Assembly: GCA_004297825.1 (NCBI GenBank)
Contig: SCSX01000040.1
Span: 1 to 60,175 of the forward strand
DNA length: 60,175 nucleotides
Reading direction: 5' to 3'
DNA from: Spirochaetota bacterium
GTDB lineage: Bacteria > Spirochaetota > UBA4802 > UBA5368
Numbering within the stretch: the first letter of the stretch is position 1; every line of letters begins with the position of its first letter. Of this stretch, positions 43,236 to 60,175 are shown piece by piece. Both the position numbers and the translations under genes were made by a program. Below the pieces are notes generated by a model, which ran no database searches, was not told where the DNA came from, and was given only the letters and a program-made list of their open reading frames with translations.

Positions 43236-43279
43236 ACGGCCTTGAAGGCGCGGATTCGAATCCGCGCCTTCAAGGCCGT
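43236..43279. terminator. Perfect 44-base palindrome between convergent genes
   Basis: The 22-base half ACGGCCTTGAAGGCGCGGAT plus TC is followed at once by its exact inverse. It starts two bases after the cyclase stop codon and its last base is in the stop codon of the oxidoreductase gene on the other strand. A two-way terminator role is likely, although no T-run is present. The core matches the hairpin at 38999-39040. Confidence 0.65.
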
Positions 43280-45159
43280 TACGAATTCCCCGGCCATACG
43301 GCCCGCGCCTCCGCGTCCATGCCGAGTGCCCTGAGCGTCGCCGTGCGCGCAACGCCCTTCTCCGGGTCCATGCCCATAAGCGCGTAAAAATCCGCCTTCA
43401 TTTCATCGAAACGAATTTCGATGCCCGCGGGATCGCCGTCGCGCGCGGGCTCCAGCATGCGCGGCGTGAGCGCGTCGTCGGCGGCGGTGAAGCCGAGCAG
43501 GCAGTTGATCACGCGCTTCAGGTGAAAGACGCGGTATCCCGCGTCGAGCATCGTGCGCGCGTCGTAGCCGTAGCCGGCGGCGGCGTTGAACAGCTCCACC
43601 ATCTCGGGAATGGTGAAGGTGCGGTCCGCGTACTGGCACAGGCACGCGCTGTTTTCGATGCTCCCGATCGCCGCGGCGAGCATCATCGTTTCGGGCTTAC
43701 CCTCGGCGGTGAGCGCCTCGAGGTTGAATTCGAATCCTATCTCGGGATAGTTGCAGGCGCCGGTCTCCATGAAGTGCATCGCGGTCGATACGTGGCAGGC
43801 GCCCCGCGGGCTCACGGCATAGGCGAGGGCATGCCCGTGGCCGCCGCCGCGCGGATCGTGCATGGGCGACTCGAGCCCCTTGCCCTGCGCGGTGTAGTCG
43901 ATGGAGTTTCCGCCCACGAGCCTGGCGGCCGCGGCGCTCCCCCGCGCGAGAAGCGCGCCCGCCCCCTCTTCCCGTCTCGCCATCGCGGGAAGAAGCGTGT
44001 CGATCACCGTGCGCATGTCGCCCCATTCCAGCGGCACGCCCCGCGTGTGCTCCGGCGTTATCTGCCCCCTCTCGAACGCCTCCATGGCCCAGGCGATCGT
44101 CGCGCCCGCGCTGATCGTGTCCATGCCCAGGTCGTTGCACACGCGGTTGGCCTTGCACGCGGCCGCGAGGTCCGACGATCCCATGAGGCTCCCGAACGCC
44201 GCAACCGTTTCGTACTCGGGGCCCGGTCCCTCGGGGATCGTGAAGGGTCCGTCGTCCACCTTCACGATGCGCTTGCACGCGACCGCGCAATACGCGCAGG
44301 TCCCGGCGCGCGTGAGGTACTTATCCGAGAGCGTGCTCCCGGTGAGCGCCTCGGCCATCTCCTCGTCGAAGTTCGAGGTCCAGTTCCGGACGGGAACGTC
44401 GCCGCTGTACATGTGTCCCTCGAGGTTCCCCGCCGAGCCGAACTCGTGCAGGACCTGCGACATGACGAAGTCCTTGATGCGCGGGGTGAGCGTTTTTATG
44501 AGGGAGGCCACGCGATCGGGGTCCGATACTACTGGCCTGCGGGGCGACGCCTTCACCACGATCGCCTTTACGTTCTTGGAGCCCAGCACCGCCCCCAGGC
44601 CGCAGCGCCCGAAGGCGTGATGCGCCTCGTGCATGATGCACGCGAACGGGACCATGTTCTCCCCCGCCGGTCCTATCACCAGCGACCTTGCCCGTGCGCC
44701 ATAACGCCCGCGGATAAGACTCGTGCACTCTTCAATCCCCCTGCCCCATAGGAAATCCGCGTCCTGTATGCTTATGGTTTCTTCTTCGATCACAATGAGC
44801 GAGGGCTGCTCGAGCCGTCCCGTGAGCACGAGCCCGTCGTATCCCGCATAACGGAACGCGGGCGCGAAGTAGCCCCCGCACGAGGAATCGGCGAAGGTGC
44901 CGGTGAGCGGGGAGCGCGCCGCCGCGCACATGCGGCTCGCGCCCGAGAGCTTGATTCCCGCGAGCGGCCCGTTCATGAGCAGGAACATGGCCTCCGGGGC
45001 GAGCGGGTCCGCGGACAGGTCCGCCCGTTCGAAGAATATCCTCGCCGCCAGACCGCTTCCGCCAATATACGAGGCATAGGTCTGCGCGGGAAGATTGATT
45101 TCCTCCGCGTGCCCCGACGTCAATTCCAGGCTCGCTATTTTCCCGGTATTCGCATACAT
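43279..45159 (-). CDS. Aldehyde:ferredoxin oxidoreductase family protein
   Basis: A 626-residue tungsten/molybdopterin enzyme of the AOR family, which oxidises aldehydes to carboxylic acids with ferredoxin. The 4Fe-4S ligands are Cys288, Cys291 and Cys295 in CAYCAVACKR plus Cys506 or Cys508 near the C-terminus. Pterin-binding blocks include GGSGLAARIFF, AGIKLSGASRMCAAARSP and GRCGLGAVLGSKNVKAI. It is the last gene of the glycyl radical operon, 27 bases after the MFS gene, and probably oxidises an aldehyde made in that pathway. GGGAG lies 7 bases before the ATG. The exact aldehyde is unknown. Confidence 0.93.
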   Translation of the reverse strand: MYANTGKIASLELTSGHAEEINLPAQTYASYIGGSGLAARIFFERADLSADPLAPEAMFLLMNGPLAGIKLSGASRMCAAARSPLTGTFADSSCGGYFAPAFRYAGYDGLVLTGRLEQPSLIVIEEETISIQDADFLWGRGIEECTSLIRGRYGARARSLVIGPAGENMVPFACIMHEAHHAFGRCGLGAVLGSKNVKAIVVKASPRRPVVSDPDRVASLIKTLTPRIKDFVMSQVLHEFGSAGNLEGHMYSGDVPVRNWTSNFDEEMAEALTGSTLSDKYLTRAGTCAYCAVACKRIVKVDDGPFTIPEGPGPEYETVAAFGSLMGSSDLAAACKANRVCNDLGMDTISAGATIAWAMEAFERGQITPEHTRGVPLEWGDMRTVIDTLLPAMARREEGAGALLARGSAAAARLVGGNSIDYTAQGKGLESPMHDPRGGGHGHALAYAVSPRGACHVSTAMHFMETGACNYPEIGFEFNLEALTAEGKPETMMLAAAIGSIENSACLCQYADRTFTIPEMVELFNAAAGYGYDARTMLDAGYRVFHLKRVINCLLGFTAADDALTPRMLEPARDGDPAGIEIRFDEMKADFYALMGMDPEKGVARTATLRALGMDAEARAVWPGNS

Positions 45160-45186: not shown

Positions 45187-46428
45187 TCAATGTCCCGCGC
45201 GCGCGAACTTCGCCCCGCGGAGGGCGAGCACGCCAAAGACCGCGGCGAGCACCCCGAGCGCGATGTACAGGGCGAAGGCCGCATGATAGTTTTTCGTGAA
45301 GTCGTGTATGTACCCGGATAGCGGCACCCCGATGGCTGTCCCGAGCGTGGTAAACACGTTCAGGAAACCGTAGATGACGCCGAAATGGCGCGGGCCCAGG
45401 CAGGCGGCCGTCATGAGCGGCGGCAGCACCGTCCGCACCGATATCGCGAAGCCGAAGAGCACGTTGAACAGCACCGCAATCCAGAACATTGCCGCCCCGA
45501 ACAGGAGCCCTATGGAAACCGTGAGCCCGGCGATGCACAGCAGCAGGCTCCTCATGAGCCCGAGCCTGTCGGAAAGATCGCCCATGACAAGCTTCCCAGC
45601 GACGAGGACCGCCATGTGCAGCGACATGAGGCTCGCGGCCGTCCCCGCGTCGACGCCAATATCGGTAAGGTAGGGAACGATGTGATGGAGGACCCCCATG
45701 TTCGCAACCGCGATGAACAGGATCATGACGGCGAGGAACCAGAAGGCCGGCGCGCGCAGCGCCGCGCGCGCGGTAAGCCCGGGAACGGCATCGGCCGTAG
45801 CGCCCGGCGATCCCGCGACCGCCCCGTAGGGGGCAAGCCCCTTTTCCGCCGGCCGGGCGCTCACGAGGAAGACCGCGACGGGAATGGTGCACACGCCCAC
45901 GATGATCCCGAGCACGAGGTACGCGGTCTGCCAGCCATACTGTTCGATAAGCCAGTTCGAGAACGGGTTGAAGATGAACCCGCCAATTCCCGTCGCCGAG
46001 AAGACGATCCCCATGGCCAGCCCGCGCTTTTCCTCGAACCAGTTGGTGATCATCATGGACACCGGGATGATGTGGGTTCCCGCGCTCCCGATTCCCAGGA
46101 AGACCGAAAGCGCGTAAAAATGCGCCAGGGTAGTGCATTGAGAGAAGAGCGCGAAGCTGACACTCATGAGCGCGGTGCATATCCCCATGACGACGCGGAT
46201 ATTTCTGCGCTCGAGTATTTTTCCCATGAAGGGGGCGACCACCATCATCGAGAGCGCGGCGATTGAGAAATAGAGCGCGAACGCGCCGCGAGTGAAGCCC
46301 TGGGATTCTATCACGGGCTTGTAGAAGACGCCCATGCAGTTCATGATGATGCCAATGCCCGCCAGGTTGAGAAAAAATCCCGAGACCACGATCCACCATG
46401 CGTAGTGCATGCGACCCTTCCGGTTCAT
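45187..46428 (-). CDS. MFS transporter, oxalate/formate antiporter-like (OFA/MCT group)
   Basis: A 413-residue, 12-helix carrier resembling the monocarboxylate/OFA group (N-terminal HYAWWIVVSGFFLNLAGIG, then GMGIVFSATGIGGFIFNP and GDLSDRLG). This group moves small carboxylic acids by symport or antiport. GGAGG lies 7 bases before the ATG. It lies within the glycyl radical operon between the SCP2-like and AOR genes, so it likely imports the substrate or exports an acid product. The overlapping frame 45176-46399 is a shadow. Confidence 0.87.
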   Translation of the reverse strand: MNRKGRMHYAWWIVVSGFFLNLAGIGIIMNCMGVFYKPVIESQGFTRGAFALYFSIAALSMMVVAPFMGKILERRNIRVVMGICTALMSVSFALFSQCTTLAHFYALSVFLGIGSAGTHIIPVSMMITNWFEEKRGLAMGIVFSATGIGGFIFNPFSNWLIEQYGWQTAYLVLGIIVGVCTIPVAVFLVSARPAEKGLAPYGAVAGSPGATADAVPGLTARAALRAPAFWFLAVMILFIAVANMGVLHHIVPYLTDIGVDAGTAASLMSLHMAVLVAGKLVMGDLSDRLGLMRSLLLCIAGLTVSIGLLFGAAMFWIAVLFNVLFGFAISVRTVLPPLMTAACLGPRHFGVIYGFLNVFTTLGTAIGVPLSGYIHDFTKNYHAAFALYIALGVLAAVFGVLALRGAKFARAGH

Positions 46429-46547
46429 TCCCGCACCTCCAGGATCAATTCACCGGGGATTTCCCGGTCCCACCCTCCGCGGGCATTCGGTTGATCTCGG
46501 CCCGCGGATGTGATGGTATGCCGAATCTTGTTCTGGCGGCGCGCCCG

Positions 46548-46985
46548 TCACTTCGTGACGATGAGGTGATCGAGCCCCATCTCGCGCAGGGAGATCGGGT
46601 ACATGTGAAACGCCGGTTTGATGACCGGAAGAAGCTTGAGCATCGCCGTGACCTTCCCGCCCTGCTTGATGATTCCCTTGGTGACGCCGGCGATCGGGTT
46701 TTCCAGCCCGTGCCAGAAACGGTGTGAATGGTCGGCGGGCTGCTTCGACCAGACGTCCGGCTGTAGATCGCAGGGCCCCAGGTAAAAGGTTCCGTGCAAT
46801 CCCGGCTTCGCGGGCGGGTTTTTCAGGTCAATGGTTATTTCCGCGTCCGGGTCCGTGTAGAAGAAGCGGATGATGATTCCCGACTTCGCCATCTTGGTGC
46901 CGATCTTCTCGTCGCTAAGCACCCTGTTCAGGAAGTACCCGTAAATTTTATACAGGTCTTCCGCGTCTTTATAATACTTTCCCAT
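46548..46985 (-). CDS. SCP2 sterol-binding-like small protein
   Basis: A 145-residue single-domain protein. The central strand IIIRFFYTDPDAEITIDL, then DVWSKQPADHSHRFWHGLENPIAGVTKG and the closing GGKVTAMLKLLP form the pattern of SCP2-type lipid- or acyl-CoA-binding domains. It has no signal peptide and AAGGGG 6-7 bases before the ATG. It follows the acyl-CoA dehydrogenase by 24 bases. In such a setting the domain may carry a hydrophobic acyl-CoA or act as an accessory to one of the enzymes (inference). Confidence 0.75.
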   Translation of the reverse strand: MGKYYKDAEDLYKIYGYFLNRVLSDEKIGTKMAKSGIIIRFFYTDPDAEITIDLKNPPAKPGLHGTFYLGPCDLQPDVWSKQPADHSHRFWHGLENPIAGVTKGIIKQGGKVTAMLKLLPVIKPAFHMYPISLREMGLDHLIVTK

Positions 46986-47009
46986 ATCGGTCCCCTTGCT
47001 TAGTAGTTT

Positions 47010-48176
47010 TCACTGTCCCTTCCGCTGGTCGAATCTCCTCCCGTATATCATGCCCGCGACCCCTATCTTGAGCATCTGGATGGTGCCCCCCGCGACGCAC
47101 CACGCCTTTGCGTCCCGGTACATCCGCTCCACGGGAAATTCCGTGCTGTAGCCGTAGCCGCCGAATATCTGCATCGCGCTGTCGGTGACGCTCACCACCA
47201 TCTCGTTCGCGAAGGCCTTCGCCATAGAGGCCTCGTACATGGAGGGGAGCCCCTGGCCCGCGCCCGCGGCCGCGCGGTAGACCAGCAGGCGCGCCGCGTC
47301 GAGCTTCGTCGCCATGTCCACGGTCGTGAACTGTATGTTCTGGAACTCGCAGATGGGCCTGCCGAACGCGGTGCGCTCCATCGCATAGGCTTTCGCCTCG
47401 GCGAGCGCGCCCCCGGCGACCCCCAGGCACATCGCGGCGTTCCCGCAGCGCTCGATGTCGAAGGTGAGCATGAGCTTGTTGAAGTCACCCGGCTTTACGA
47501 CGAGGTTTTTCCCGGGCACCTTCACGTTGTCGAAGAAGAGGTCGCATGAGGGCATTCCCCTGAGCCCCATGAAGCGCTCCTGTTTCCCGAAACTGAACCC
47601 GGGCATCCCCTTCTCCACGATGAGTCCGCCTATCCCCTTGTAGCCCCTGGTCTTGCCGAACCGCGTGTACACCATGTAATGGCTCGCGTGCCCGCCGCCG
47701 GTGATGAAGGACTTGCGCCCGTTCAGGAGGTAGCCGTCCCCGTCCTGCTCGGCGTTGGTGGTGAGGGCGGTGAGGTCGGAGCCGGCCTCGGGCTCGGTCA
47801 TGCACACGGAGACGGAGAGCTCGCCCCTGCACACGCCGGGGAGTATCGCCTTCTTCTGCTCCGGGGTGCCGAAAAGGTCGATGACCCGCACCGGGCCCAC
47901 GTTCGATTCGAAGACCGGCGCGGCGATCATGGGGCTGAATTTCGCGAGCTCCTCGATCGTGATGATCGCATTGAGCGCGCTCTGCCCGCCGCCGCCGTAT
48001 TCCGGCGAGAGCGTCATCCCCAGGAAGCCCAGCTCCGCGTATTTCGCCATGAGCGCGTAGGGGAACTCGCCCGTGGCGTCGATATGCTTCGCGAGATCCT
48101 TGAACTTCTCGCGCTCCCCCATGGTGCGGATAGTGTCGATCAGCATTTTCTGTTCATCGGTCAACGTGAAATCCAT
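47010..48176 (-). CDS. Acyl-CoA dehydrogenase
   Basis: FAD enzyme introducing an alpha-beta double bond into an acyl-CoA, 388 residues. Family blocks are CMTEPEAGSDL, NGRKSFITGG, RTAFGRPICEFQ and QIFGGYGYSTEFPVERMYRDAK. The usual catalytic Glu of the YEGT motif is absent: the segment reads VAGGT (361-365). A Glu is present at 242 in FDIERCG, the position used by isovaleryl-CoA dehydrogenase (DLER), which also has a Gly in the other place, so a branched or bulky acyl-CoA is possible. ATG at 48176 with GGAG upstream. No electron-transfer flavoprotein gene is nearby. Confidence 0.92.
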   Translation of the reverse strand: MDFTLTDEQKMLIDTIRTMGEREKFKDLAKHIDATGEFPYALMAKYAELGFLGMTLSPEYGGGGQSALNAIITIEELAKFSPMIAAPVFESNVGPVRVIDLFGTPEQKKAILPGVCRGELSVSVCMTEPEAGSDLTALTTNAEQDGDGYLLNGRKSFITGGGHASHYMVYTRFGKTRGYKGIGGLIVEKGMPGFSFGKQERFMGLRGMPSCDLFFDNVKVPGKNLVVKPGDFNKLMLTFDIERCGNAAMCLGVAGGALAEAKAYAMERTAFGRPICEFQNIQFTTVDMATKLDAARLLVYRAAAGAGQGLPSMYEASMAKAFANEMVVSVTDSAMQIFGGYGYSTEFPVERMYRDAKAWCVAGGTIQMLKIGVAGMIYGRRFDQRKGQ

Positions 48177-48196
48177 GATCACTCCTCGAAATGTTG

Positions 48197-48303
48197 GACC
48201 TGTTGCGAAACTGCCGTCTCGCGCCCGCAGGGAACCCCTGCGGGGGGCTTTTAAGAGGCTTCGCCCCTTATAGCCCGTGGAAAATGGAGTTATGCAACAA
48301 GTC
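48197..48303. repeat. 107-base inverted-repeat element
   Basis: Ends GACCTGTTGCGAAACTGCC and, inverted, GACTTGTTGCATAACTCC match at most positions. The middle has a strong CCGCAGGGAACCCCTGCGG hairpin and a GAGGCTTCGCCCC stretch. It resembles a small non-coding mobile repeat (MITE/REP-like). It is in the 259-base gap between the acyl-CoA dehydrogenase and MmgE/PrpD genes. Confidence 0.6.
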
Positions 48304-48435
48304 TATTGTTAAGGTAACGAACCCTGAAACCCTACCGTTATGCGCAATAAATATCGATCTGCGCCGCCCCGGCGCGCCCCTGCCGGATCGCGCTGCCGGA
48401 AGCCCGTACGCGCATCGGACCCCCTGCCCCTGACG

Positions 48436-49803
48436 TCATATCGATCCCAGGAGGAGCCCTATTCCCTTCGCCTTCTCGATATTCATTATCCCTTCGATAA
48501 TGCCGTCTATCTTCGCCGCGTCGCGCCCGCCGGCGAAGAGGCGCAGCTTGGCGGCGATGTCGTCCTGTTCCATGGGATCGCGCGGGTCGCCTTTGGGAAT
48601 ATCGATCTGCCGGACGTACCTCTGCCCGTCGTGCGTGACGATCTCCACGCGGCTCGCGGTCTTGTCGGGATAGGCCTTGTTCAGCTCGTCATCGCTCACG
48701 ACCGTCACCTTGTTGGAAAGCGTGATCAGCGCGGGATCCGCGATGCGCCGCTCCGTGAGCTGCTTCGCGCCCAGCTCCCCGTCCAGGATGCATGCCGCCA
48801 CGACGAAGGGTATGGAGAACTGGGCCGATACGAAGGTCCCCGATTCCGCGAAGCCCTTCCCCACCGCGAGCGCCGCGACTCCGTAGGTGAACACCGTGAT
48901 CGCCCGTATCGCGGCAGGTTTGAAATGGTGTGCGCCCATGAGCTCGATCACCGCCTGCGCCGCGCCGTGCGTGTGCCTGCACGCGGTGTAGGGCTTGAAG
49001 TAGACGTCCATGATCGAGTAGCGCTCGCCCAGTCCGTCCGTGATCCGTTCGCACTTGGGATCCGCGCGCAGCGTGATCTGCGTGAAGCCGCCCTTGAGCG
49101 CCGAGCCCTCGAGCACGACCGGCGAGCCCGATATCCCCCGCGACGCGAGCTCGGCCGCCATGATGCCGGCGCTCGCCGCCTGTCCCCCCTGGACGATCTT
49201 GATCGTGTAGCCGCCCATGAGCTGCTCCGCCATGGAAAGCGGTAGCAGGTAACCCGCGTTGCCCAGCGCGTTCAGCATCCCGTCCTTATCCAGCCCCATG
49301 AGCCGCGCCGCGGCGGCCGCGGCCCCAAACGTACCGCACGTGCCGGTGGGGAGAAAACCGGAAAGCGTATGAAATGGATGCATGGCTGCGGCGGTCCGGT
49401 TCGCGGTCTCGTAGCCCGCAACCACCGCCTCGATGAGCCTTTGCCCGTCCAGGTCCCGGCCCTCCGCGACCGCGAGCGCCGCGGGAATGACCGCCGACAC
49501 CGCGTGGTTGCCCCCGAAGCGCAGGCCGTCCTGGGCCTCGATCGCCTCGGCAGTGGTGCCGTTGACGAACGCGGCGTTCTGCAACCCGGTCTTGAACCCG
49601 CAGCCGAGCGCCGTCGCGTCCGGGGGACCGCCCATGGCGCGCACGCATTCGGTCACCGCGCGCACGGCGTCCAGCTCCAGCGAGCCGTACACGTTCGCCG
49701 CGTAGTCGAGCAGGCAGAGCTTCGCCTTGTGCACGACCTCTTCAGGAAGCGCGTTATACGAAATCCCCGTGCAGAACTTCGCGAGTTCCCTGGTATATTC
49801 CAT
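48436..49803 (-). CDS. MmgE/PrpD family protein
   Basis: A 455-residue protein of the MmgE/PrpD fold (2-methylcitrate dehydratase and related lyases or epimerases acting on tricarboxylic and other organic acids). Typical blocks are LLDYAANVYGS, NGTTAEAIEAQDGLRFGGNHAVSA-type active-site region, HPFHTLSGFLPTGTCG, LPLSMAEQLMGGYTIKIVQGGQAASAG and YFKPYTACRHTHGAAQA. The reaction cannot be read from sequence. The place between acyl-CoA dehydrogenase and CoA-transferase genes suggests hydration or dehydration of a pathway acid. GGAGG precedes the ATG by 9 bases. Confidence 0.9.
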   Translation of the reverse strand: MEYTRELAKFCTGISYNALPEEVVHKAKLCLLDYAANVYGSLELDAVRAVTECVRAMGGPPDATALGCGFKTGLQNAAFVNGTTAEAIEAQDGLRFGGNHAVSAVIPAALAVAEGRDLDGQRLIEAVVAGYETANRTAAAMHPFHTLSGFLPTGTCGTFGAAAAAARLMGLDKDGMLNALGNAGYLLPLSMAEQLMGGYTIKIVQGGQAASAGIMAAELASRGISGSPVVLEGSALKGGFTQITLRADPKCERITDGLGERYSIMDVYFKPYTACRHTHGAAQAVIELMGAHHFKPAAIRAITVFTYGVAALAVGKGFAESGTFVSAQFSIPFVVAACILDGELGAKQLTERRIADPALITLSNKVTVVSDDELNKAYPDKTASRVEIVTHDGQRYVRQIDIPKGDPRDPMEQDDIAAKLRLFAGGRDAAKIDGIIEGIMNIEKAKGIGLLLGSI

Positions 49804-49838
49804 GAGCGTTCACCTCCGCCTTTCGGTTTTTCCCGCGT

Positions 49839-50639
49839 CTATACGTATCCCTTCTTCTCGTAAATCCGTATCATCCCCAGCGGGTCCAGGACCTTCCTGA
49901 GCACGCGGAGCTCCTCGGCGCGCGGGGGCTCGGTCTCGCGTACGGCCTCGCTCACCCTGAGCTTCCACGGGGTGAGCTTCACCACCTCCTCGACGGAGCT
50001 TCCCGGGTGGTAGCTCTCCAGGTATGCCTCCTTCGAGTCCCGGTCGAACCGGAGGACCGCCTTGTTCGTGATGATCACCTCCGGTCCCGTCCCGGCCGGA
50101 AGCCCGCAGCGCTCCCGTGCGCCCGGGCCGTCAAGGTAGCCGGGGGTCGTGATGAAATCGACGCGCTCCGCGAGGGTGCGCGTGTTGTGGAGCGCGATGA
50201 TGAGGACTCGCTTCGCGAGAGCCCCGATCGGGTTCGCGCCGCCGGACCCGGGGAGGCGGCTTTTCGGGCTGTCGTAATTTCCGATCACCGTGGTGTTGAT
50301 GTTCCCGAACCTGTCCACCTGGCTTCCGGCGAGGAAGCCCACGTCGATCCAGCCCCCTTGTAAAAACATGCCCATCACCTCGATTAGGCCCCCGATCATG
50401 GCCGCGCCGGGATTGAGGCACGGGTCCCCGACCGAGAGCGCCGGCCGCGCGGGGCGCGCGTCGAACACGCCGGACTCCTGCATCATGGACGCCCCGGGCG
50501 CGTGGGTGTGCTTCGCGATGTTCGCGGACATCGTGGGGAAACCAGTCCCCACGATCACGAGGTCTTTGTCGCGTATCTCCCTCGCGCCGCAGCAGGCCAT
50601 GAGCTCCGGCTTAATGTAGGAATCGGGATGCGTGGTCAT
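49839..50639 (-). CDS. CoA-transferase beta subunit (GctB-like)
   Basis: A 266-residue class I CoA-transferase subunit resembling glutaconate CoA-transferase B. The candidate catalytic Glu is in ASMMQESGVF near residue 55; this residue forms the glutamyl-CoA thioester in the family. Glycine-rich blocks are GTGFPTMSANIAKH, GGWIDVGFLAGSQVDRFGNINTT and GSGGANPIGALAKR. It starts 12 bases after the alpha-subunit gene. With the alpha subunit it should activate a carboxylic acid by CoA exchange. A hydrolytic IpdB-like function is possible but less likely given the Glu. Confidence 0.87.
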   Translation of the reverse strand: MTTHPDSYIKPELMACCGAREIRDKDLVIVGTGFPTMSANIAKHTHAPGASMMQESGVFDARPARPALSVGDPCLNPGAAMIGGLIEVMGMFLQGGWIDVGFLAGSQVDRFGNINTTVIGNYDSPKSRLPGSGGANPIGALAKRVLIIALHNTRTLAERVDFITTPGYLDGPGARERCGLPAGTGPEVIITNKAVLRFDRDSKEAYLESYHPGSSVEEVVKLTPWKLRVSEAVRETEPPRAEELRVLRKVLDPLGMIRIYEKKGYV

Positions 50640-50650
50640 GTGGGGCCTCT

Positions 50651-51586
50651 CTAGTAGGCGTACGATACGGGATATCCGTAATCGAACTTCGCCTGGAGTT
50701 TTTTAAACTGCGCGTACCCGAAACGCTGGATGAAGTGCTGGGTGTACCCGGCGCGGTCCTTCATGCCGTACACCCACTCGTCCAGGAATTTATCGAACCC
50801 CTCGGCCGTCGACGAGGCCTGCTGGTAGAGGTATCCGTAGGTCAAATCCACGTCGTAGAATCCGGGCGTGTACCCCGGGTGCGCGCCAAAGGGCTCCTCG
50901 GTGACCGCGACCACTTTAAATGAAGGGACGATCGTGCGCGAGGGATCGGTGCCTACGGTCTCGCGGCTCACGATCCGCTCGCAGCTCACGATCACCTTCT
51001 GCGCCGCGTTCGCGCCCCACTTGCAGTCACCCCCGATCCCCCACATCTGCGCGTTGCCCTCCTCGTCGGCCTGCTGCACGTGGATGATCGCGACGTCGGG
51101 CCGCAGCGCGGGCGCGAGGAGCACCGGGCTCCCGTCGAAGGGCGAGTCGATCTGCTTGTATTTCTTCTCGCCCATGAACGAGCTTATCTTTAAGAGGTCG
51201 GTGCCGGCCATGTCCTTCACCGGGACGAAGGGCATCCCCAGCGCCCCGGCCATGAGCATGAGGGGGAGCGAGAGGTTCGTGTACTCCTCGATCTCGATCT
51301 TGTGCGGGATTCCCTTTTCGATCGAGCGGCGGTAGCACCGCGCGAGGCCGTACAGTCCCAGGGAGATGAACGTGGAGATGAAGCGCTTCACGCACCCGGC
51401 ACCGATAAGCATGTCGAAGTCGTCGGCCGCGTTGCTCCTCGTGACGGTCAGGTCCCGTTTCTTCTGGCGGATGATCTCGTGGATGGCGGCGAACGGCGGA
51501 CGGCATATGTAGCCGCCGATAAAAAGGAAGTCGCCGTCGCCCACGAACCTTCCGACCGCCTCGGCGGTGCTCATCACCTTGCCCAT
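50651..51586 (-). CDS. CoA-transferase alpha subunit (GctA-like)
   Basis: A 311-residue partner of the downstream beta subunit. Blocks include FVGDGDFLFIGGYICRPPFA, LTVTRSNAADDFDMLIGAGCVKRFIST-type region, DVAIIHVQQADEEGNAQMWG and CERIVSRE. GGAGGAGGGAG precedes the ATG. The substrate acid is unknown. In the operon it follows the glycyl radical enzyme by 49 bases, so it likely activates the acid formed by aldehyde oxidation. Confidence 0.87.
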   Translation of the reverse strand: MGKVMSTAEAVGRFVGDGDFLFIGGYICRPPFAAIHEIIRQKKRDLTVTRSNAADDFDMLIGAGCVKRFISTFISLGLYGLARCYRRSIEKGIPHKIEIEEYTNLSLPLMLMAGALGMPFVPVKDMAGTDLLKISSFMGEKKYKQIDSPFDGSPVLLAPALRPDVAIIHVQQADEEGNAQMWGIGGDCKWGANAAQKVIVSCERIVSRETVGTDPSRTIVPSFKVVAVTEEPFGAHPGYTPGFYDVDLTYGYLYQQASSTAEGFDKFLDEWVYGMKDRAGYTQHFIQRFGYAQFKKLQAKFDYGYPVSYAY

Positions 51587-51635
51587 CTCTCCCTCCTCCC
51601 GCGTGCGCCGATGCGCGATATCCCGGATTCCGCGC

Positions 51636-54023
51636 TCACTTCGCGAGCTCGAACTCCGTCCTGCTGATGATCTCGTCCTGCGCGATCTCGGAGAGCCCCG
51701 TGAACTCCGCGGAGTAGCCGCTCACGCGCACGAAGAGGTCCCGGTATTTTTCCGGCATCGCCTTCGCCTCCCTGAGCACGTCCGAATCCAGCATGTTGAA
51801 CTGTACCTGCATGCCGCCGTTCGCGAAATAGGTGCGTATGAGCACGGCCAGGTGCGCCGTCATTATCCTTTTCCCCTGGAAGCGCATATTCAGGTTCGCG
51901 CCGTTGAAAATCCTCGCCAGGGGAAGCTTCACCACGGAATTCATGATCGCCGTGGGCCCGCTCGCGGCGTTTCCCGTCGTGGGCGTGATCCCGTTGCCTA
52001 AAACGTCTCCCGCATAACGGCCGTCCGCCGTCGCCCCCGTGAAGGCGCCCATGCTTATATGGAAGCCCACCGAGAATATCCCCGGCCAGAACGCGCCGCC
52101 CCGGTGATGCCGGTGTCCCGCCAGCACGTCGCAGTAGTGTTCCACGACCCGCGCCGCCATCGCGTCGACCTCGTCGTTGTCGTTGCCGTACTTGGGAACG
52201 CGGTTCAGGAACCACGCGCGCTTGTCATCGTGGTCCTGCCAGTCGGCGGAAAGCCATTCGGCCAAGTCGCCTATGGAAAAGCGCTTATCCCGGAACACGG
52301 CCGAGCTCACGGCGTACAGGCTGTCCACGATGTTCGCGAATCCCATGAGCTGCACGCCGGTGGAGTTGTAGACGGCGCCCCCCGCCGTGAGGTCCTTTCC
52401 CTTCTCGATGCATCCCTCCACCATGGCCGAGGCGAAGGGAGAGGGAACCATCTCCGCGATCGCCCCGTCGAGCACCCCCATGCCGCGGACCATCTGGCCG
52501 ATAAAATGGCGCATCTGCGCATCGTACGCCTTCCACACATCGTCGAAGGACGTGAACGACGCGGGGTCACCCGTCTCGATCCCGGAGCGGTATCCGAAGA
52601 TGTTGTCGATGCCGTTGGAGAGCGCGAACTCGACGCACTTGATCCCGTTAAACTGGACCGCGAAGGTCGATCCGAACGTCTTGCCTTGCGCATTGGGCTC
52701 CAGGCATCCCACGACACCGTAGTCCCGCGCGTCCTCGATCGTGTGGCCCGATTTTACCAGCGACGCGATGATCGCCTCGTCGTTGAAAAAATGCAGCAGC
52801 ACCCCGTCGCGCGCGTATTCGGCCGCCCTGGTCAACAGGGGCCCCGTGTCCTTCTTCGAAATCCTCACGCCGAAGTTGGGCTGCACCGTGCGCACGTCCG
52901 CGTACGCGTCCAGGCCGATAAGGCTCAGCTCGTTGGTCGCGTCCTCCCCGCGTTCGTCCATTCCGCCCACCGTGACGTTCTGCGTGGTCTTGCCCTCCGT
53001 GCCCTCGCCGCCGGGGATGAAGGCCTCCTCGAGCACGTTCCATATTTCGTTCGTCTTTACATAGAGGAGCGCCAGGATCTCGCGAGCCCGATCGGGCGTG
53101 ATGCGTCCCGCGTCCGCGTCCTTTTTATAGTAGGGATACAGGATCTGGTCGATGCGCCCCAGGGAGATTGAATTCCCCCCGGACTCGATCTGTGCGATCA
53201 GGTGGATGAAATAGAACGACTGCGCCGCCTCGTGGAAGCTTTCGGCGGGAAACTCGGGCACGTGACGGCACACCCGCGCGATCTCGCGCAGCTCCGCGGC
53301 GCGCGAGGCGTTCTTCTCGGCGGCGGCAAGCGCATCGGCGTGATCGGCATAACGCCGCGCGAAGATGACAGCCGCGCCGCATGAGCGTATGACCGCCTCG
53401 TAGAAGAGGCCCTTTTCGCCGGCCTTTTCTTCACTGGAAAGCCGGTCCATCTTCGCGCGCGCGTCGTCCATCACGCCGCGCAGGCCGCGCGCGAGCACCT
53501 TCTTGTGGTTCATCGTAAAGTGCCCTATGCCATAGGTGATCTCGAGCATCATGGTGAAGATGTACTTATCCATGTCCGCGGCGACGTCGGCGGGCATGCG
53601 CCCTTCCATGCACTCTTCTACGGTCTTCCCGCGCCAGAACGGCAGTATGGATTCGGCGAGCTCCTTCTTTTCGGCGGGGGTTATGAGGGCGCGCTGGACC
53701 ACCCTCTGGTCGAAGCCGTCAAGGTCTCCCTCGATCCACCTCGCCTTGTTCTCGGGAAAGAGCGGCGCGCCCTTGAGCTTCGAGGTGCGGCATCCCACGA
53801 CCAGCTCTTCCTCGCGGATGACGACGCTGATGTTCTTGAGGATGTGCTCCAGGGCGAAGCTTATCCGCCGGAGCGGCGGCTCGTCCCAGTGGAGCCTCAT
53901 GGATTCCGTGACGTAACGCGCGCGCTCGATGCACACCTCCTGCGGCGCGTCGATTATCTTCCAGCGCAGGTTATCGACCCTTGACCGGGCCTCGTCCTTC
54001 AACGATGCATTCTGCGTACCCAT
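51636..54023 (-). CDS. Glycyl radical enzyme, dehydratase/lyase type
   Basis: A 795-residue member of the pyruvate-formate-lyase-like family; cytosolic, anaerobic. The radical glycine is Gly769 in RVSGYSAEF. The thiyl Cys440 and general-base Glu442 form GCLEP, the GCxEP pattern of eliminating enzymes (glycerol and propanediol dehydratases, choline and isethionate lyases). Benzylsuccinate-type enzymes lack it. Family blocks YGIGHFTMNHKKVLARGL (His168), GGNSISLGRIDQILYPYY and VPKYGNDNDEVD are present. GGAGG precedes the ATG. The substrate is not assigned. No activating enzyme is adjacent, which is unusual, since the radical must be installed by a radical-SAM partner. Confidence 0.93.
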   Translation of the reverse strand: MGTQNASLKDEARSRVDNLRWKIIDAPQEVCIERARYVTESMRLHWDEPPLRRISFALEHILKNISVVIREEELVVGCRTSKLKGAPLFPENKARWIEGDLDGFDQRVVQRALITPAEKKELAESILPFWRGKTVEECMEGRMPADVAADMDKYIFTMMLEITYGIGHFTMNHKKVLARGLRGVMDDARAKMDRLSSEEKAGEKGLFYEAVIRSCGAAVIFARRYADHADALAAAEKNASRAAELREIARVCRHVPEFPAESFHEAAQSFYFIHLIAQIESGGNSISLGRIDQILYPYYKKDADAGRITPDRAREILALLYVKTNEIWNVLEEAFIPGGEGTEGKTTQNVTVGGMDERGEDATNELSLIGLDAYADVRTVQPNFGVRISKKDTGPLLTRAAEYARDGVLLHFFNDEAIIASLVKSGHTIEDARDYGVVGCLEPNAQGKTFGSTFAVQFNGIKCVEFALSNGIDNIFGYRSGIETGDPASFTSFDDVWKAYDAQMRHFIGQMVRGMGVLDGAIAEMVPSPFASAMVEGCIEKGKDLTAGGAVYNSTGVQLMGFANIVDSLYAVSSAVFRDKRFSIGDLAEWLSADWQDHDDKRAWFLNRVPKYGNDNDEVDAMAARVVEHYCDVLAGHRHHRGGAFWPGIFSVGFHISMGAFTGATADGRYAGDVLGNGITPTTGNAASGPTAIMNSVVKLPLARIFNGANLNMRFQGKRIMTAHLAVLIRTYFANGGMQVQFNMLDSDVLREAKAMPEKYRDLFVRVSGYSAEFTGLSEIAQDEIISRTEFELAK

Positions 54024-54114
54024 GGCAACCTCCCCGGATTGTACTGCCGCCGGGCGCCGCGCGCGGGAGACGTATCCCCGCGGGCGCCCGCCGTGTTACC
54101 GCGCGCGAATCGTC

Positions 54115-54945
54115 CTATACCTTTATGTCCATGTAGTTCACCAGTATCGCGTCCCTCAGTTTAGTCGGGAGGAAATTATTAATCCAGAGTAAAAAAGAGC
54201 TGCTGAAATCGATCTGGTTAAAGAGCGCCGGCTTCTTCGCGGTGACCACCTTCACAATCCTGCCCGCCGCGAAAATAGGCGTGGGGGCGGTCTTGATCAG
54301 CTCGTCGTCCCGTGCGATGAATCTTCGCGCCCGCTCGCGATAGGGCGACCCATCTTTCGGGAGCACGTGTATCTTCGCGGCGAAGGTGGTGGACACCTGG
54401 GCCGGCTCGATGATCGACACCCTGATCCCGAACGGCGCAACCTCGTAGCGCAGCGACAGCATGAGACCCGTCACCGCGAACTTGCTCGCGGTATAAATAG
54501 ACTCGAACGGGAATGGAATGCGGCCCACGAGCGAGGACATGGCTATGAGCTTGCCCTGCTTACGGTCGCGCATCGACGGGATGAACGCCTGGAAGATCGC
54601 GGCGGTGCCGATCACGTTTATCTCGAGACACTTGAGCGCCTTTTCGAGGTCCACCTCCTCGAAGGGGCTGAAAAACCCGATGCCCACGTTGGAAAGCACC
54701 GTGTCGACCTTCCCGTATTTCTTCAGCACCTTGTCGCGGAACCGTGTGATTCCCGCGCGGTCCGATATATCCATGGGCATGAGGAGATGCTCTCCCCCGA
54801 TCTTATCCATCTCTTCGGAAAGCGATGCCACGCCCTTTGCGTCCACGTCGAAACCCGCGATCGAATGTCCCATCCCCGCGAGCATCTTCGCCACGTGACG
54901 GCCCATGCCGTCGCCCAGCCCTGTTATTACGATCACCTCTCTCAT
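54115..54945 (-). CDS. Short-chain dehydrogenase/reductase
   Basis: A 276-residue classical SDR. The cofactor motif is TGLGDGMG (8-15), followed by FDVD, an Asp-Val/Ile pair in MPMDISD, a Ser in MSSLVG and the catalytic Tyr-Lys in YTASK. The C-terminal tail (LFNQIDFSSSFLLWINNFLP) is hydrophobic and may touch a membrane or bulky substrate, as in some steroid or lipid SDRs. GGAGG lies 6 bases before the ATG. A remnant of a second copy lies at 57480-57633. It probably oxidises or reduces a hydroxyl or keto group before or after the radical step. Confidence 0.9.
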   Translation of the reverse strand: MREVIVITGLGDGMGRHVAKMLAGMGHSIAGFDVDAKGVASLSEEMDKIGGEHLLMPMDISDRAGITRFRDKVLKKYGKVDTVLSNVGIGFFSPFEEVDLEKALKCLEINVIGTAAIFQAFIPSMRDRKQGKLIAMSSLVGRIPFPFESIYTASKFAVTGLMLSLRYEVAPFGIRVSIIEPAQVSTTFAAKIHVLPKDGSPYRERARRFIARDDELIKTAPTPIFAAGRIVKVVTAKKPALFNQIDFSSSFLLWINNFLPTKLRDAILVNYMDIKV

Positions 54946-54980
54946 CGCGAGCCTCCAGTAAATTTATTTCTTTACTATTA

Positions 54981-55970
54981 CTATTTACACGAATGCGAAC
55001 GATACCATTCCCCCATCTGCGTCATGGATTCCCTGAAATCCGGGTAGGCCATGCGGAACCCGGTCGACTTGAGCTTTGCGTTGTCCACGATATAGTCGTC
55101 GTACAGGTACTTCACCGCGTCGTATTCCAGGTCGGGGATTTTTCCTTTTCGCGCCGCCTTCGATCCTTCAATCTTCGCCGCGATTTTCACCAGCCACAGG
55201 GGCAGGTGCAGCCTGGGGGGCCTGGTCCCGAACGTCGCGGAAGCCAGCTCAAGCGCTTCCTGCAGGGTCGGGTGCGTGTCCTCGGCGATGTTGTACGCGT
55301 TCCCGACCGCGGAGTCGAGGAACGAAAGATGCTCCACCGCCGCCGCCACGTCCTCGGCGCGTATGTTGGAAAGTAGCTGCTGTCCGTGTCCCGGTATGGC
55401 CGATATGTCCGTGGGCCGGGAGAACGCTTTTCCCGCGCCGTCGTTGCAGCGCGGCCCGTAGACCGTGCAGGGGCGCGTGATGATCCCCGGCATCCCCTGG
55501 CCGATGCGCTTCCAGACGACGTCCTCGCCGTCCCGCTTGCTCGTCCCGTAGGCGTCGTGCGGATCGCGCGGGCCGTCCTCGGTGAAGGGCGTACCCTTGT
55601 AATAGCCATACACGCTGGTCGAGCCCACGTGCACATAGCGCTTCACGCCGTGTTTCATCACCAGCTCCGTGAAAAGCTCGACGCCGCGCACGTTGGTGGG
55701 AAAAAGCCTTTCGTAGGGCGTCGAAAAATTGCAGATGGCGCCCAGGTGGAACACCCGGTCGACATTCCCCTCGAAGAGCCGGGGAAGCGTCTCGGGCTTC
55801 GTGAGGTCGGCGGGAACGTATTCCACGCCCAGCTTCTCGAAAAAGGAAATGTCCTTCCGCGGCCTGGCGCTCGCCCGCACCTTCACCCCTTTATTGGCGA
55901 GGTACTCAACCAGGTGGCTCCCCATGAACCCGGCCGCGCCGGTCACGAGCGTGATTCCGTCGAATTTCAT
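54981..55970 (-). CDS. Extended SDR (NAD-dependent epimerase/3-beta-HSD-like)
   Basis: A 329-residue extended SDR. The Rossmann motif is TGAAGFMG near residue 10, with RASARP, ADLTKPE, HLGAICNF, GSTSVYG, the catalytic Tyr-Lys in YGTSKRDGE and RPCTVYGP. Substrates of this group include nucleotide sugars, steroids and dihydroflavonols. The ALYSV-type sugar markers are missing, and HLGA.C resembles 3-beta-hydroxysteroid and cinnamoyl-type enzymes. ATG at 55970 with GAGGGGGG upstream. It sits between aldehyde dehydrogenase and SDR genes, so a role on the pathway substrate is likely. Confidence 0.88.
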   Translation of the reverse strand: MKFDGITLVTGAAGFMGSHLVEYLANKGVKVRASARPRKDISFFEKLGVEYVPADLTKPETLPRLFEGNVDRVFHLGAICNFSTPYERLFPTNVRGVELFTELVMKHGVKRYVHVGSTSVYGYYKGTPFTEDGPRDPHDAYGTSKRDGEDVVWKRIGQGMPGIITRPCTVYGPRCNDGAGKAFSRPTDISAIPGHGQQLLSNIRAEDVAAAVEHLSFLDSAVGNAYNIAEDTHPTLQEALELASATFGTRPPRLHLPLWLVKIAAKIEGSKAARKGKIPDLEYDAVKYLYDDYIVDNAKLKSTGFRMAYPDFRESMTQMGEWYRSHSCK

Positions 55971-56034
55971 GCGCCCCCCCTCTCCTGTCCGATCGTTATT
56001 CCCCACTATATTTCACATAACGTCATAGCGCCGC

Positions 56035-57459
56035 TCAGTCGTGGCCGATAAGCGCCTTGATTTCAAAATATTCCTCGAGCCCGTATTTGCTGCGCTCGCG
56101 TCCCAGCCCCGACTGCTTGTAGCCCCCCGCGGGCGCGTTGATGTCGAAGTCCGCGCCGTTGATGAAGACCTGTCCCGTGCGCAGCCGCCGCGCGACGGCC
56201 CGCGCGCGCCCCGCGTCTCCCGACCACACCGAGCCCGAGAGACCGTACACGCTGTCGTTCGCGATCTTCACGGCCTCCTCCTCGGTTCGGTAGGGAATGA
56301 TGCACAGCACCGGTCCGAATATCTCCTCGCGGGCGATCGTCATGTCGTTGCGCACGTCGGCGAATATCGTCGGCTTCACGTAATAGCCCTTTTTCAAGTT
56401 TTCCGGCTGTTCGGGGCCGCCCAGGACGAGCGTCGCCCCCTCGCGGATACCGGCCTCGATGTACGCGCGCACCGAGCGCTGCTGCGCAGCGTCCACCATG
56501 GGCCCCAGGTAATTGCCTTCCTCGAACGAGTCGCCCATCTTCATGAGCCCCACGGTGCCCTTCGCGATTTCAATGACCTCCGCCTGTTTCTCGGCGGGAA
56601 CGATCATCCTGGTAAGCGCGATGCAGGTTTGCCCCGAATTGAGGAAGCAGTTGAAGACGCCCTTGGGCACAGCCTTCGTGAGATCGGCATCGTCCAGGAT
56701 GACGTTCGCGGACTTGCCGCCCAGCTCCAGCGTTACCTTCTTGATGGTCTCCGCCGCCGCCTGGGAAACGAGCGTCCCCGACCTCGTGGAGCCGGTGAGC
56801 GAGACCATGTCCACTCCCGGGTGGGACGCGAGCGCATTGCCCGCCTTCGAGCCGGCGCCGGCCACCAGGTTGAACACCCCGGCGGGGAGTTTCACTTCGT
56901 CCATTATCTCCGCCAATATGAAGGCGTCCAGGGGCGCGAGCTGGCTTGGCTTAAGCACCATCGTGCAGCCGGCCGCGAGCGCCGGAGCCACCTTCCCGAT
57001 TATCTGGTGCAGGGGATAGTTCCACGGCGTGATAAAGCCGCATACCCCGATGGGCTCCTTCACGATGCGCGTGCCGTTAATGCTGTACTCGAATTCGTAG
57101 CCCTCCAGGAGGGGCACGAAGGCATTCAGCACGGCTATGGGCAGACCCGCCTGGACCATGCGCGAGAGCGCCTGGGGCATCCCCATCTCGCGGGCGATGA
57201 CATCGCCGATCTCGTTCTGGCGCGCGGCCATCGCCTTCGCGATGTCCGCGATGAACGCGGCGCGCCGCGCGACCGTCGTGGACGCCCAGGCGGGAAAGGC
57301 CGCACGGGCCGCTATCACCGCCCTGTCCACGTCAGCGGCGTTGCCCATGCGCACCCGGGCGATGGCCTCCTCGGTGCAGGGATTGACGACCTCGACGGTA
57401 TCCGTGCCGGCCGGCTCGACCCATTGTCCGCCGATGTAGAACTTGTCGTATGTTTTCAT
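56035..57459 (-). CDS. NAD(P)-dependent aldehyde dehydrogenase
   Basis: A 474-residue ALDH oxidising an aldehyde to an acid. The catalytic Cys is in NSGQTCIALTRM, the general-base Glu in LELGGKSANVI, the cofactor region in ITPWNYPLHQI and SLTGSTRSG, and EEIFGPVLCII is near the C-terminus. ATG at 57459 with GGAGG 4 bases upstream; the upstream part of the frame (to 57798) belongs to a pseudogene and the PadR gene. It is the first intact gene of the operon. The last gene is a second, ferredoxin-linked aldehyde oxidase, so aldehyde handling is doubled. Confidence 0.94.
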   Translation of the reverse strand: MKTYDKFYIGGQWVEPAGTDTVEVVNPCTEEAIARVRMGNAADVDRAVIAARAAFPAWASTTVARRAAFIADIAKAMAARQNEIGDVIAREMGMPQALSRMVQAGLPIAVLNAFVPLLEGYEFEYSINGTRIVKEPIGVCGFITPWNYPLHQIIGKVAPALAAGCTMVLKPSQLAPLDAFILAEIMDEVKLPAGVFNLVAGAGSKAGNALASHPGVDMVSLTGSTRSGTLVSQAAAETIKKVTLELGGKSANVILDDADLTKAVPKGVFNCFLNSGQTCIALTRMIVPAEKQAEVIEIAKGTVGLMKMGDSFEEGNYLGPMVDAAQQRSVRAYIEAGIREGATLVLGGPEQPENLKKGYYVKPTIFADVRNDMTIAREEIFGPVLCIIPYRTEEEAVKIANDSVYGLSGSVWSGDAGRARAVARRLRTGQVFINGADFDINAPAGGYKQSGLGRERSKYGLEEYFEIKALIGHD

Positions 57460-57479
57460 TCCCCCTCCCTGCGCCCCGG

Positions 57480-57633
57480 GCGTCCGGTCCGCGATATCCA
57501 TGTGCCTGAGCAGCAATGATCGCCCTTCGTGCCTGCCGGCCCCTGCTCCGGGCTCTCGAGCCCCTTGCCGTCCAGGTCGAAACCCGCGATCGATGCGCCA
57601 TTGCCGGCAAGGATTTTCGCGACCTCCCGGCTG
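57480..57633 (-). pseudogene. Frameshifted remnant of an SDR gene
   Basis: Minus-strand translation gives REVAKILAGNGASIAGFDLD (57633 down to about 57560). This matches residues 16-36 of the intact SDR at 54945-54115 (HVAKMLAGMGHSIAGFDVD). In another frame about 57535-57480 gives EGRSLLLRHMDIADR, matching its GGEHLLMPMDISDR. The N-terminal 15 residues, the start codon and everything after residue 66 are missing. It fills most of the 181-base gap between PadR and the aldehyde dehydrogenase. Confidence 0.72.
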
Positions 57634-57640
57634 TGTGAAG

Positions 57641-58192
57641 TTATCTTTTCCCGGCCGACGATACCGCGGCGTTATTCCCGATCTCCTCGCGCGCGCGCCG
57701 GAGCCAGGTGAGATACATTTCGTTGAATTCGATACCGAGCTCCGCGAGAAGCTGCACGTGGACGCCCTGCTTTCTCCAGCGCTCGCGGTTTTCCGCACGC
57801 CGCGCGTGCTGGGACTCGTACACGGCTATCTGCTCGTCGATATACTTGAGCGCGAGCCTGTCGTTCCCAAATCCCATGAAGGCAAATTTGAGGAGAAACG
57901 GGTCGCGCAGGAGCATCTGCTTGTCGGGCGATTCTTCAAGCCAGCGCGAGAATTCCTCCTTTCCTTTTTCGGTGATCGCGTAGAGCTTCTTGTGCGGCCC
58001 GCCGTTTTCCGAGGAACGGAGCTCCACCATGGTGACGAGCTCTTCGGACTCGAGCTCCTTGAGGTTCGGGTATATCTGCCCGAAATTCACGGACCACATG
58101 TGTCCGAAGTTCTTCTCGAGATGCTCCTTGATCCGGTAGCCGTGCATGTTCGAGTAGTGAAGAAGGCCCAAAATCGCGTATTTGATCGACAT
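57641..58192 (-). CDS. PadR-family transcriptional regulator
   Basis: A 183-residue regulator. The N-terminal winged helix (SIKYAILGLLHYSNMHGYRIKE, then IYPNLKELESEELV and KKLYAITEKGKEEFSRWL) is typical of PadR. A C-terminal helical dimerisation region (about 90-165) makes it the longer PadR subtype (PadR-s1/AphA-like). Such proteins usually repress nearby genes and release DNA on binding a small, often aromatic, molecule. It stands in front of the 11-gene glycyl radical operon in the same direction. ATG at 58192, AGGGG 10 bases upstream. Confidence 0.9.
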   Translation of the reverse strand: MSIKYAILGLLHYSNMHGYRIKEHLEKNFGHMWSVNFGQIYPNLKELESEELVTMVELRSSENGGPHKKLYAITEKGKEEFSRWLEESPDKQMLLRDPFLLKFAFMGFGNDRLALKYIDEQIAVYESQHARRAENRERWRKQGVHVQLLAELGIEFNEMYLTWLRRAREEIGNNAAVSSAGKR

Positions 58193-58287
58193 TGTTCGCA
58201 AACCCCTGTTCGCAGGCTTTTATTCGTGCCGCCGATTCGCCCGGCCCCGTTGCGGGCCGCGTGGCTGCATCGGACACAATCGACCTT

Positions 58288-58345
58288 GTGATTATATACT
58301 TAATATATATATTATCTATGTATATAGATTGTATATACTTGTCAA
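58288..58345 (-). promoter_or_regulatory. AT-rich promoter/operator region of padR
   Basis: On the minus strand TTGACA (58345-58340) leads into about 50 bases of almost pure A/T. This contains two direct copies of TATATACTT on the plus strand (58293-58301 and 58332-58340) and palindromic TATA runs. A weak -10 (TACATA) lies 17 bases after the -35. It stands out against the GC-rich background and is a likely PadR self-regulation site. Confidence 0.5.
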
Positions 58346-58404
58346 GGATTTTTTGTAATATTACATAAATGAGGCTGGTCAGGGGCGTGCGGGGTTGGTG
58401 AATG

Positions 58405-58430
58405 CAAGACGTACCGCGGTACGTCTCTAC
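58405..58430. repeat. GTAGAGACGT hairpin, copy 2
   Basis: AGACGTACCGCGGTACGTCT is a perfect 20-base palindrome (58407-58426). Its right end ACGTCTCTAC equals that of the hairpin at 28972-29006. It touches the 3' end of the MFS exporter gene (stop at 58427) and may end its transcript. Confidence 0.7.
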
Positions 58431-59734
58431 TCCTCCTGCATCGACGTTACGGCGTCGGCGGAATGCATGGCCTGGGCCATCTCGGGGATGATGCCCTTGC
58501 GCACATAGATGGGGCGCACCATCGCGCGCATGCGGGGAAGGTAGCAGGCGAACACGAGCGCCCCCGCGATGCACAGGACCCCGCCCGCGGCCACGGCGAG
58601 GGGGGTTCCGATACGCTCGGCCGCCGCCCCGGAGGCGAGGCTCCCGAACGGGACCATGCCGGCGAATGCCATCGTGTAGAAGCTCATCACCCTGCCCCGC
58701 ATCGAGTCGTCCACGATCGTCTGCAAGATCGTGTTGCCGGACGCCATCATCGCGATCATGCCGAAGCCCGCGAGCGCGAGCGCCGCCGCGGACAGTGCCG
58801 TTGTGCGCGATACGGAGAGCAGGCAGAGCGCCCCGCCGAACACCGCCGACGAGAGGGCGATGACGCGCCCCAGGCCGCGGACGTCGGCGCGCGAGGCGAG
58901 GTAGAGCGCGCCCGCGAGCGCCCCGAAGCCGGTCGCACCGCTCAATACCCCCAGGGTGCCCGAGTCCCCTCCCAGGATGCTCTTTGCGAAGACGGGCAGG
59001 AGCACCGTGAAGGACATGCCCGCAAGGCTCATGAGCGCGATGAGGAGGAGAAGCGCGCGTATGGGACCAAATCCGAAGGTGTAGCGCACCCCCGCAATGA
59101 GCGCGGCAAGGGGATTTTCCGGCGTTTCCCTGACTGGCTTCGCGGGCACGCGGATTACCACGAGCGACGCGATCACCGCCATGTAGCTCACGCCGTTCAG
59201 GAGGAAGCACATCCCCTCCCCGATCACGACGATGAGCGCCCCGGCGACCATAGGCCCCGCGAGGCGCGCCGCGTTGAACAGGCTCGAATTGAGCGCTATG
59301 GCGTTGGGAAGGTCCTCCTTCCGGTCGATCATCTCGATCACGAAGGACTGGCGCGTGGGCATGTCGAAGGCGTTCACGCAGCCGAGCGCGGCGGCGAGCG
59401 CGACCAGGTGCCATGATTCGACGAGCCCGGAGAGAACGAGGAGCGCCACGGCGAAGGCCTGCAGCATGGCGAGCCCCTGCGTGAGGACCAGGATCGCGCG
59501 CCGGTCGAAGCGGTCGGCGAGCATGCCCGCGACGGGGACCAGTACGAGGGCCGGTATCTGCCCCGCGAAGCCGATCACCCCGAGCATGAGGGCGGAGCCC
59601 GTGAGCCGGTACACGAGCCAACTCATCGCCAGCTGTTGCATCCAGGTGCCCACGAGCGAAATGCCCTGGCCGATATAAAACAGCCGGAAGTTCGGGTTCT
59701 CGAGCGCGCGGAATGTATTCGCAAACCTGTTCAT
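58427..59734 (-). CDS. MFS exporter (EntS/MFS_3-like)
   Basis: A 435-residue, 12-helix efflux-type MFS protein. The start FRALENPNFRLFYIGQGISLVGTWM-type region, LADRFDRRAILV after helix 2, FDMPTRQSF, ALNSSLFNAARLAGP and DDSMRGRVMSFYTM are hallmarks of the MFS_3 group (enterobactin and drug exporters). The ribosome site before the ATG is poor. It is on the same strand as padR but upstream of it with a 234-base promoter-containing gap, so it is probably a separate unit. Substrate unknown. Confidence 0.88.
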   Translation of the reverse strand: MNRFANTFRALENPNFRLFYIGQGISLVGTWMQQLAMSWLVYRLTGSALMLGVIGFAGQIPALVLVPVAGMLADRFDRRAILVLTQGLAMLQAFAVALLVLSGLVESWHLVALAAALGCVNAFDMPTRQSFVIEMIDRKEDLPNAIALNSSLFNAARLAGPMVAGALIVVIGEGMCFLLNGVSYMAVIASLVVIRVPAKPVRETPENPLAALIAGVRYTFGFGPIRALLLLIALMSLAGMSFTVLLPVFAKSILGGDSGTLGVLSGATGFGALAGALYLASRADVRGLGRVIALSSAVFGGALCLLSVSRTTALSAAALALAGFGMIAMMASGNTILQTIVDDSMRGRVMSFYTMAFAGMVPFGSLASGAAAERIGTPLAVAAGGVLCIAGALVFACYLPRMRAMVRPIYVRKGIIPEMAQAMHSADAVTSMQEE

Positions 59735-59840
59735 GAAGAGACAACGTATCCGGGCGGGGACGAAAGGTCAAGGATGGTTTATCGCGCCGTGCTCACTGCC
59801 CCTTCGCGGCAATGCCTTCATGCGTGATCATGCAAAGAGC

Positions 59841-60175
59841 TTATTCTCTGAACAAATCGGTCAGGTTTACCGACAGTCCCTTCAAGGTTTTCACCTTCAC
59901 GGTGTCCGGCGGGGAATAGATGACGGGCCTGGAATAGAGCTTGTCCTTCCCGCGGTAAAATACCATGAGCGTTTCTTCAAGCGGATGGATGATCCAGTAT
60001 TCTTTCACGCCGTGCGTCTCGTAGAGCGCCTGCTTTTCCCGCATGTCCTTGGCGGCTGTCCCCGGGGAGACTATTTCCACCACGAGATCCGGCGCGCCCA
60101 GGCACCCCCGTTCGTCCAGCTTCTTTGCGTCGCAGACCACGGATATATCCGGCTGCACCACGGTGGTGATTTCGT
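59841..60175 (-). CDS. Uma2-family (DUF820) endonuclease, C-terminal part
   Basis: The frame is open through the right edge, reading EITTVVQPDISVVCD at the boundary, so the N-terminus is outside the window. The visible 110 residues carry the PD-(D/E)xK-like core: APDLVVEIVSPGT, a Lys in MREKQALYETHGVKEYWIIHP, and the C-terminal SVNLTDLFRE. Uma2 proteins are widespread, often in several copies per genome. Their biological role is not established, though a restriction-endonuclease fold is predicted. Confidence 0.88.
   Translation of the reverse strand, partial: EITTVVQPDISVVCDAKKLDERGCLGAPDLVVEIVSPGTAAKDMREKQALYETHGVKEYWIIHPLEETLMVFYRGKDKLYSRPVIYSPPDTVKVKTLKGLSVNLTDLFRE

Follow-up and report, generated by a model that had tools for sequence, protein, structure and literature searches.

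A glycyl radical enzyme (GRE) gene without an adjoining activase gene was found in the window, i.e., the whole analysed stretch of 60,175 nucleotides, which is also the whole of contig C40. The encoded protein, P0001, is probably a functional GRE and is the sole unpaired one in its source genome. From the comparison of gene content among genomes, it is quite likely that P0001 receives its radical in trans, from an activase shared with another GRE. The reading as a whole, in which a functional GRE activated in trans carries out a diol-like elimination within an operon-encoded pathway, was given a probability of about two in three.

The GRE gene and its operon

In this anaerobic bacterium, the GRE gene belongs to a conserved, widely distributed catabolic operon on the minus strand, whose genes are listed below in the direction of transcription.

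57641..58201, minus strand: PadR-family regulator, first gene of the conserved operon (Pfam PadR, 4.4e-18; TTG start as listed)
56035..57459, minus strand: aldehyde dehydrogenase (ALDH), start MKTYDKF (Pfam Aldedh, 6.5e-158)
54981..56006, minus strand: extended SDR/NAD-epimerase-like protein, conserved (Pfam Epimerase, 3.3e-31)
54115..54945, minus strand: short-chain dehydrogenase (SDR), conserved (Pfam adh_short, 8.3e-45)
51636..54023, minus strand: GRE P0001, 795 aa, without an activase in the operon (Pfam, residues and fold)
50651..51586, minus strand: CoA-transferase subunit A, glutaconate CoA-transferase-like (1poi_A, 2.8e-52)
49839..50639, minus strand: CoA-transferase subunit B (1poi_B, 5.5e-54)
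48436..49803, minus strand: MmgE/PrpD family protein (Pfam; nearest solved structure IDS-epimerase 2hp3)
47010..48182, minus strand: acyl-CoA dehydrogenase (Pfam; 4l1f, 2.2e-79)
46548..46985, minus strand: 145-aa conserved protein (no Pfam match; SCP2-like by eye only)
45187..46428, minus strand: MFS transporter (Pfam MFS_1, 4.5e-42)
43279..45159, minus strand: aldehyde:ferredoxin oxidoreductase (AOR) family protein (Pfam AFOR_C, 1.7e-100; 1aor, 8.9e-100)

No RNA elements were found in positions 43000-60175. Downstream of the operon, two large GGDEF/EAL/PAS signalling proteins are encoded on the plus strand (38824-43233).

The span 51636-54023 and the residues Cys440, Glu442 and Gly769 given in the preliminary description were confirmed, and the gene was assigned to the minus strand. 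The GCLEP motif supplies Cys440 and Glu442, and RVSGY supplies Gly769 within the RVxG[FWY] fingerprint of the superfamily. Pfam identified a PFL-like domain (8e-192) and a Gly_radical domain (9.9e-24), and the PFL-like barrel and glycine radical domain were also seen in the AlphaFold model (pLDDT 90) and in the PDB matches. P0001 passed the curated cut-off of TIGR01774, the PFL2/glycerol dehydratase family (699.9 vs 678.2 bits), and fell under every equivalog cut-off (HypD, CutC, HpfG/HpsG, HPAD, IAD and PFL), the best being HpfG at 566.5 vs 1000 bits. A non-glycyl radical residue was also sought in P0001 and the other GREs of its genome and was rejected, as Gly was kept in all those read.

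Across Spirochaetota, Desulfobacterota, Chloroflexota and other groups, about 40 genomes carry a GRE ortholog (65-87% identity) in the same operon. The hosts included Spirochaetes, Syntrophales/Smithella, other Deltaproteobacteria, Dehalococcoidia, Zymogenaceae and one Fibrobacteres MAG. C440 and G769 were invariant in a 32-sequence ortholog alignment, and Glu442 and the active-site signature were likewise invariant among the orthologs. The close relative G001, of the same genus, carries the same stretch (locus L054). The comparison of the two GRE genes gave dN 0.076, dS 0.523 and dN/dS of about 0.15, which indicates purifying selection. The orthologs at L059 and L036 each contain an in-frame stop in MAGs (one TAG, one TGA).

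The recurrent operon order is PadR, epimerase-like SDR, SDR, GRE, CoA-transferase A and B, MmgE/PrpD, acyl-CoA dehydrogenase, 145-aa protein and AOR/MFS. The PadR gene lies upstream in most orthologous loci, and the aldehyde dehydrogenase gene is present in only some of them. An all-against-all search for more conserved neighbour genes returned mostly antisense and shifted-frame ORFs. No description of the operon was found in the open-access literature, subscription journals being outside the search.

Distribution of activase genes

GREs are generally described with a dedicated partner activase, and a nearby activase gene is typical of them, though not obligatory. The preliminary description had reported none in the 60 kb, and this held. 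The CxxxCxxC motif occurred in no ORF of at least 80 aa in any frame of the window, and a six-frame TIGR02494 search of the whole genome (E<=0.001) gave no match on contig C40, not even a fragment. A radical-SAM gene hidden in the window by a frameshift was rejected on these results.

The preliminary description had also proposed counting GREs against activases in the genome. The source genome (G000; 4.89 Mb, 96 contigs, 95% complete) contains seven GREs, on C12, C40, C50, C66, C69, C80 and C89, and six activases that pass the family cut-off, on the same contigs apart from C40. Every one of the six activases has a partner among the other six GREs, either no more than 430 bp away or in the same frame. 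One open frame of 1147 aa at C89:6039-9281 (L006, L007, L014) joins a GRE to an activase that lacks the ferredoxin-like insert, and similar long frames were met in G017 (C7), G023 (C266), G029 (C28) and G219 (C139). Further GREs whose contig carries no activase were seen in G002 (C30), G004 (C1), G210 (C11) and G203 (C17, C52 and C66).

The surroundings of the ortholog loci were searched with an activase HMM built from the six activases of G000, which as a positive control detected activases beside more distant GREs in L049, L052, L053, L087, L091 and L092. Around the GRE orthologs it found none except at L068, L075 and L079, where the activase gene follows that of the 145-aa protein at the far end of the operon. 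An activase within 3 kb was found for the P0001-type GRE in 0 of 27 genomes and for other GREs in 51 of 71 (Fisher p=9.6e-12; cells counted by hand, related genomes not independent). Most genomes are fragmented MAGs, in which single absences can be assembly gaps.

A dedicated activase gene in an unassembled gap or past the contig end is an unlikely explanation. It would fit a 96-contig, 95% complete assembly in which 6.1 kb separate the start of the GRE gene from the right end of its contig, and an activase within the operon does exist in G204, G205 and G206. However, the absence is repeated in about 40 genomes and at 10 orthologous loci whose flanks extend for 8.7 kb or more on both sides, which also bears on an activase just outside the window, where the contig ends. 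The single-contig genome G200 has no operon activase either, and nothing orthologous to the activase of the activase-bearing operons turned up in G000 (best identity 38%).

Slightly less likely again is the loss in most lineages of an ancestral operon activase, as in L068, L075 and L079, followed by the use of paralogous activases. The three operon activases are mutually orthologous (56-69%), and G205 contains exactly one GRE and one activase, the latter in the operon, as such a loss would allow. However, the GREs of the activase-bearing operons formed one nested clade (support 0.988, in a tree with a weakly supported backbone in places). Its sister, L072, has no operon activase, and the only activase of that genome adjoins another GRE. 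Since the activase-bearing operons are confined to one nested clade, one late gain is simpler than many losses, and a single late gain in the three-genome clade would be the simplest account. The activase gap at P0001 is not a local loss, and its operon probably never had a dedicated activase in this lineage. The preliminary description had left a choice between activation in trans and a lost partner; trans activation is the best explanation of seven GREs with six activases and of the pattern in about 40 genomes, and the loss reading is weakened by the single nested clade.

A GRE that is never activated, being inactive or working without a radical, would fit the unlinked gene and a genome (G226) that holds the GRE and no recognisable activase, but it is very improbable given the invariant Cys440, Glu442, Gly769 and signature and the purifying selection across phyla.

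Activation in trans and candidate partners

Under activation in trans, an activase encoded elsewhere, beside another GRE, would install the Gly769 radical. In G000 the candidate activators would be the six activases on C12, C50, C66, C69, C80 and C89. Two GREs and one activase were found in eight genomes (G005, G006, G199, G208, G209, G211, G216 and G225), and seven of these have that one activase next to a GRE of about 850 aa of the C80 type. The C80 activase is the leading candidate partner of P0001, since most two-GRE genomes have no activase other than one of its type. Trans activation can be tested directly in genomes that combine exactly two GREs with a single activase. In G200, a single chromosome record of 2.18 Mb, there are two GREs, both full-length, and a single activase, which lies 15.3 kb from the P0001 ortholog.

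At an identity of at least 50%, the C80 type was present in 12 of 14 relatives bearing the P0001-type GRE and in about 16 of the 32 genomes of the same order that do not carry it, a comparison confounded by phylogeny. It was missing in G043, G205 and G209, which bear the P0001-type GRE. No single activase type was found in all such genomes, and one universal trans activase type was not borne out. In G226 (the genome of L071), the P0001 ortholog is the only GRE, and no activase was recognisable, possibly from incompleteness. More tentatively, and with somewhat less than an even chance, the whole GRE clade may have spread horizontally over at least three phyla and been kept as an operon free of activase genes, using whichever GRE activase its host possesses or a non-canonical activator, as G226 could indicate.

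TdcE is a formate-lyase that acts on ketoacids and a close relative of PflB. In E. coli it is activated in vitro by PFL-AE (PflA) (PMC7476758), so that a GRE is served by the activase of another GRE, as proposed for P0001. Unlike TdcE, which is close to PflB, P0001 is at best 38% identical to its own-genome paralogs; the far greater closeness of TdcE and PflB counts against a TdcE-like trans activation. Paired threonyl radical enzymes share one TRE-AE, an arrangement that its authors call atypical (PMC11528403). This case also has two radical enzymes and one activase, but both threonyl enzymes adjoin the shared activase, whereas P0001 is unlinked and keeps its Gly.

One known enzyme thus already borrows its activator; here the rule would span a whole enzyme clade in several phyla. 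Such a clade without its own activase implies a capacity of GRE activases to act on distant GREs. This would bear on the annotation of orphan GREs, on their reconstitution and on the movement of operons between hosts.

Active site and proposed pathway

The preliminary description had called P0001 a dehydratase-type eliminase from its Cys, Glu and Gly. Cys-x-Glu is also present in arylacetate decarboxylases, so these three residues alone are no proof of an eliminase and had been over-read. The fold and the core residues did support the assignment. The predicted structure was nearest to the B12-independent glycerol/propanediol dehydratases of C. butyricum (1r8w; TM 0.94-0.95) and R. inulinivorans (5i2a/5i2g; TM 0.94 to 5i2g), with 37-39% sequence identity to 1r8w and 5i2g. 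Among eight active-site residues of glycerol dehydratase (GDH) compared, the equivalents of Cys, Glu, His164 and Ser282 are kept, and the H168/S285/C440/E442 set of P0001 is diol-dehydratase-like.

The other four GDH residues, which we take to have substrate-pocket roles, are replaced: His281 by Asn284, Tyr339 by Thr347, Asp447 by Phe454 and Tyr640 by Phe650, identically in 22 of 22 orthologs. These replacements indicate that the substrate differs from that of glycerol dehydratase, and a diol-dehydratase-like core chemistry with a different substrate is plausible. P0001 further differs from these dehydratases in its operon and in having no adjoining activase. The closest paralog in its genome, the C69 GRE (L002; 38%), has Asn284 and Ser285 in common with P0001 but retains the Asp and Tyr missing from P0001, and its own activase is 65 bp away.

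From the fold, core residues and gene context, we consider the chances even that P0001 is an eliminase yielding an aldehyde. Once the radical had moved from Gly769 to Cys440, the enzyme would most likely use this residue together with Glu442 and His168 to remove water (or a comparable leaving group) from a substrate resembling a vicinal diol, which would yield the aldehyde. ALDH or AOR would convert the aldehyde to the acid, and the CoA thioester would be formed by the CoA-transferase (in some relatives by a CoA ligase) and then dehydrogenated by the acyl-CoA dehydrogenase. The gene content thus suggests a route from diol through aldehyde and acid to acyl-CoA, the order of which we infer. The fixed active-site signature and the conserved operon suggest an anaerobic pathway, as yet uncharacterised, whose end product is an acyl-CoA. 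CoA-transferase subunit B keeps the catalytic Glu position of glutaconate CoA-transferase (MQESG). In L067, L083 and L088, an AMP-forming CoA ligase stands in place of the CoA-transferase, and in L083 an ALDH replaces the AOR at the same position; both replacements fit the route from aldehyde through acid to acyl-CoA.
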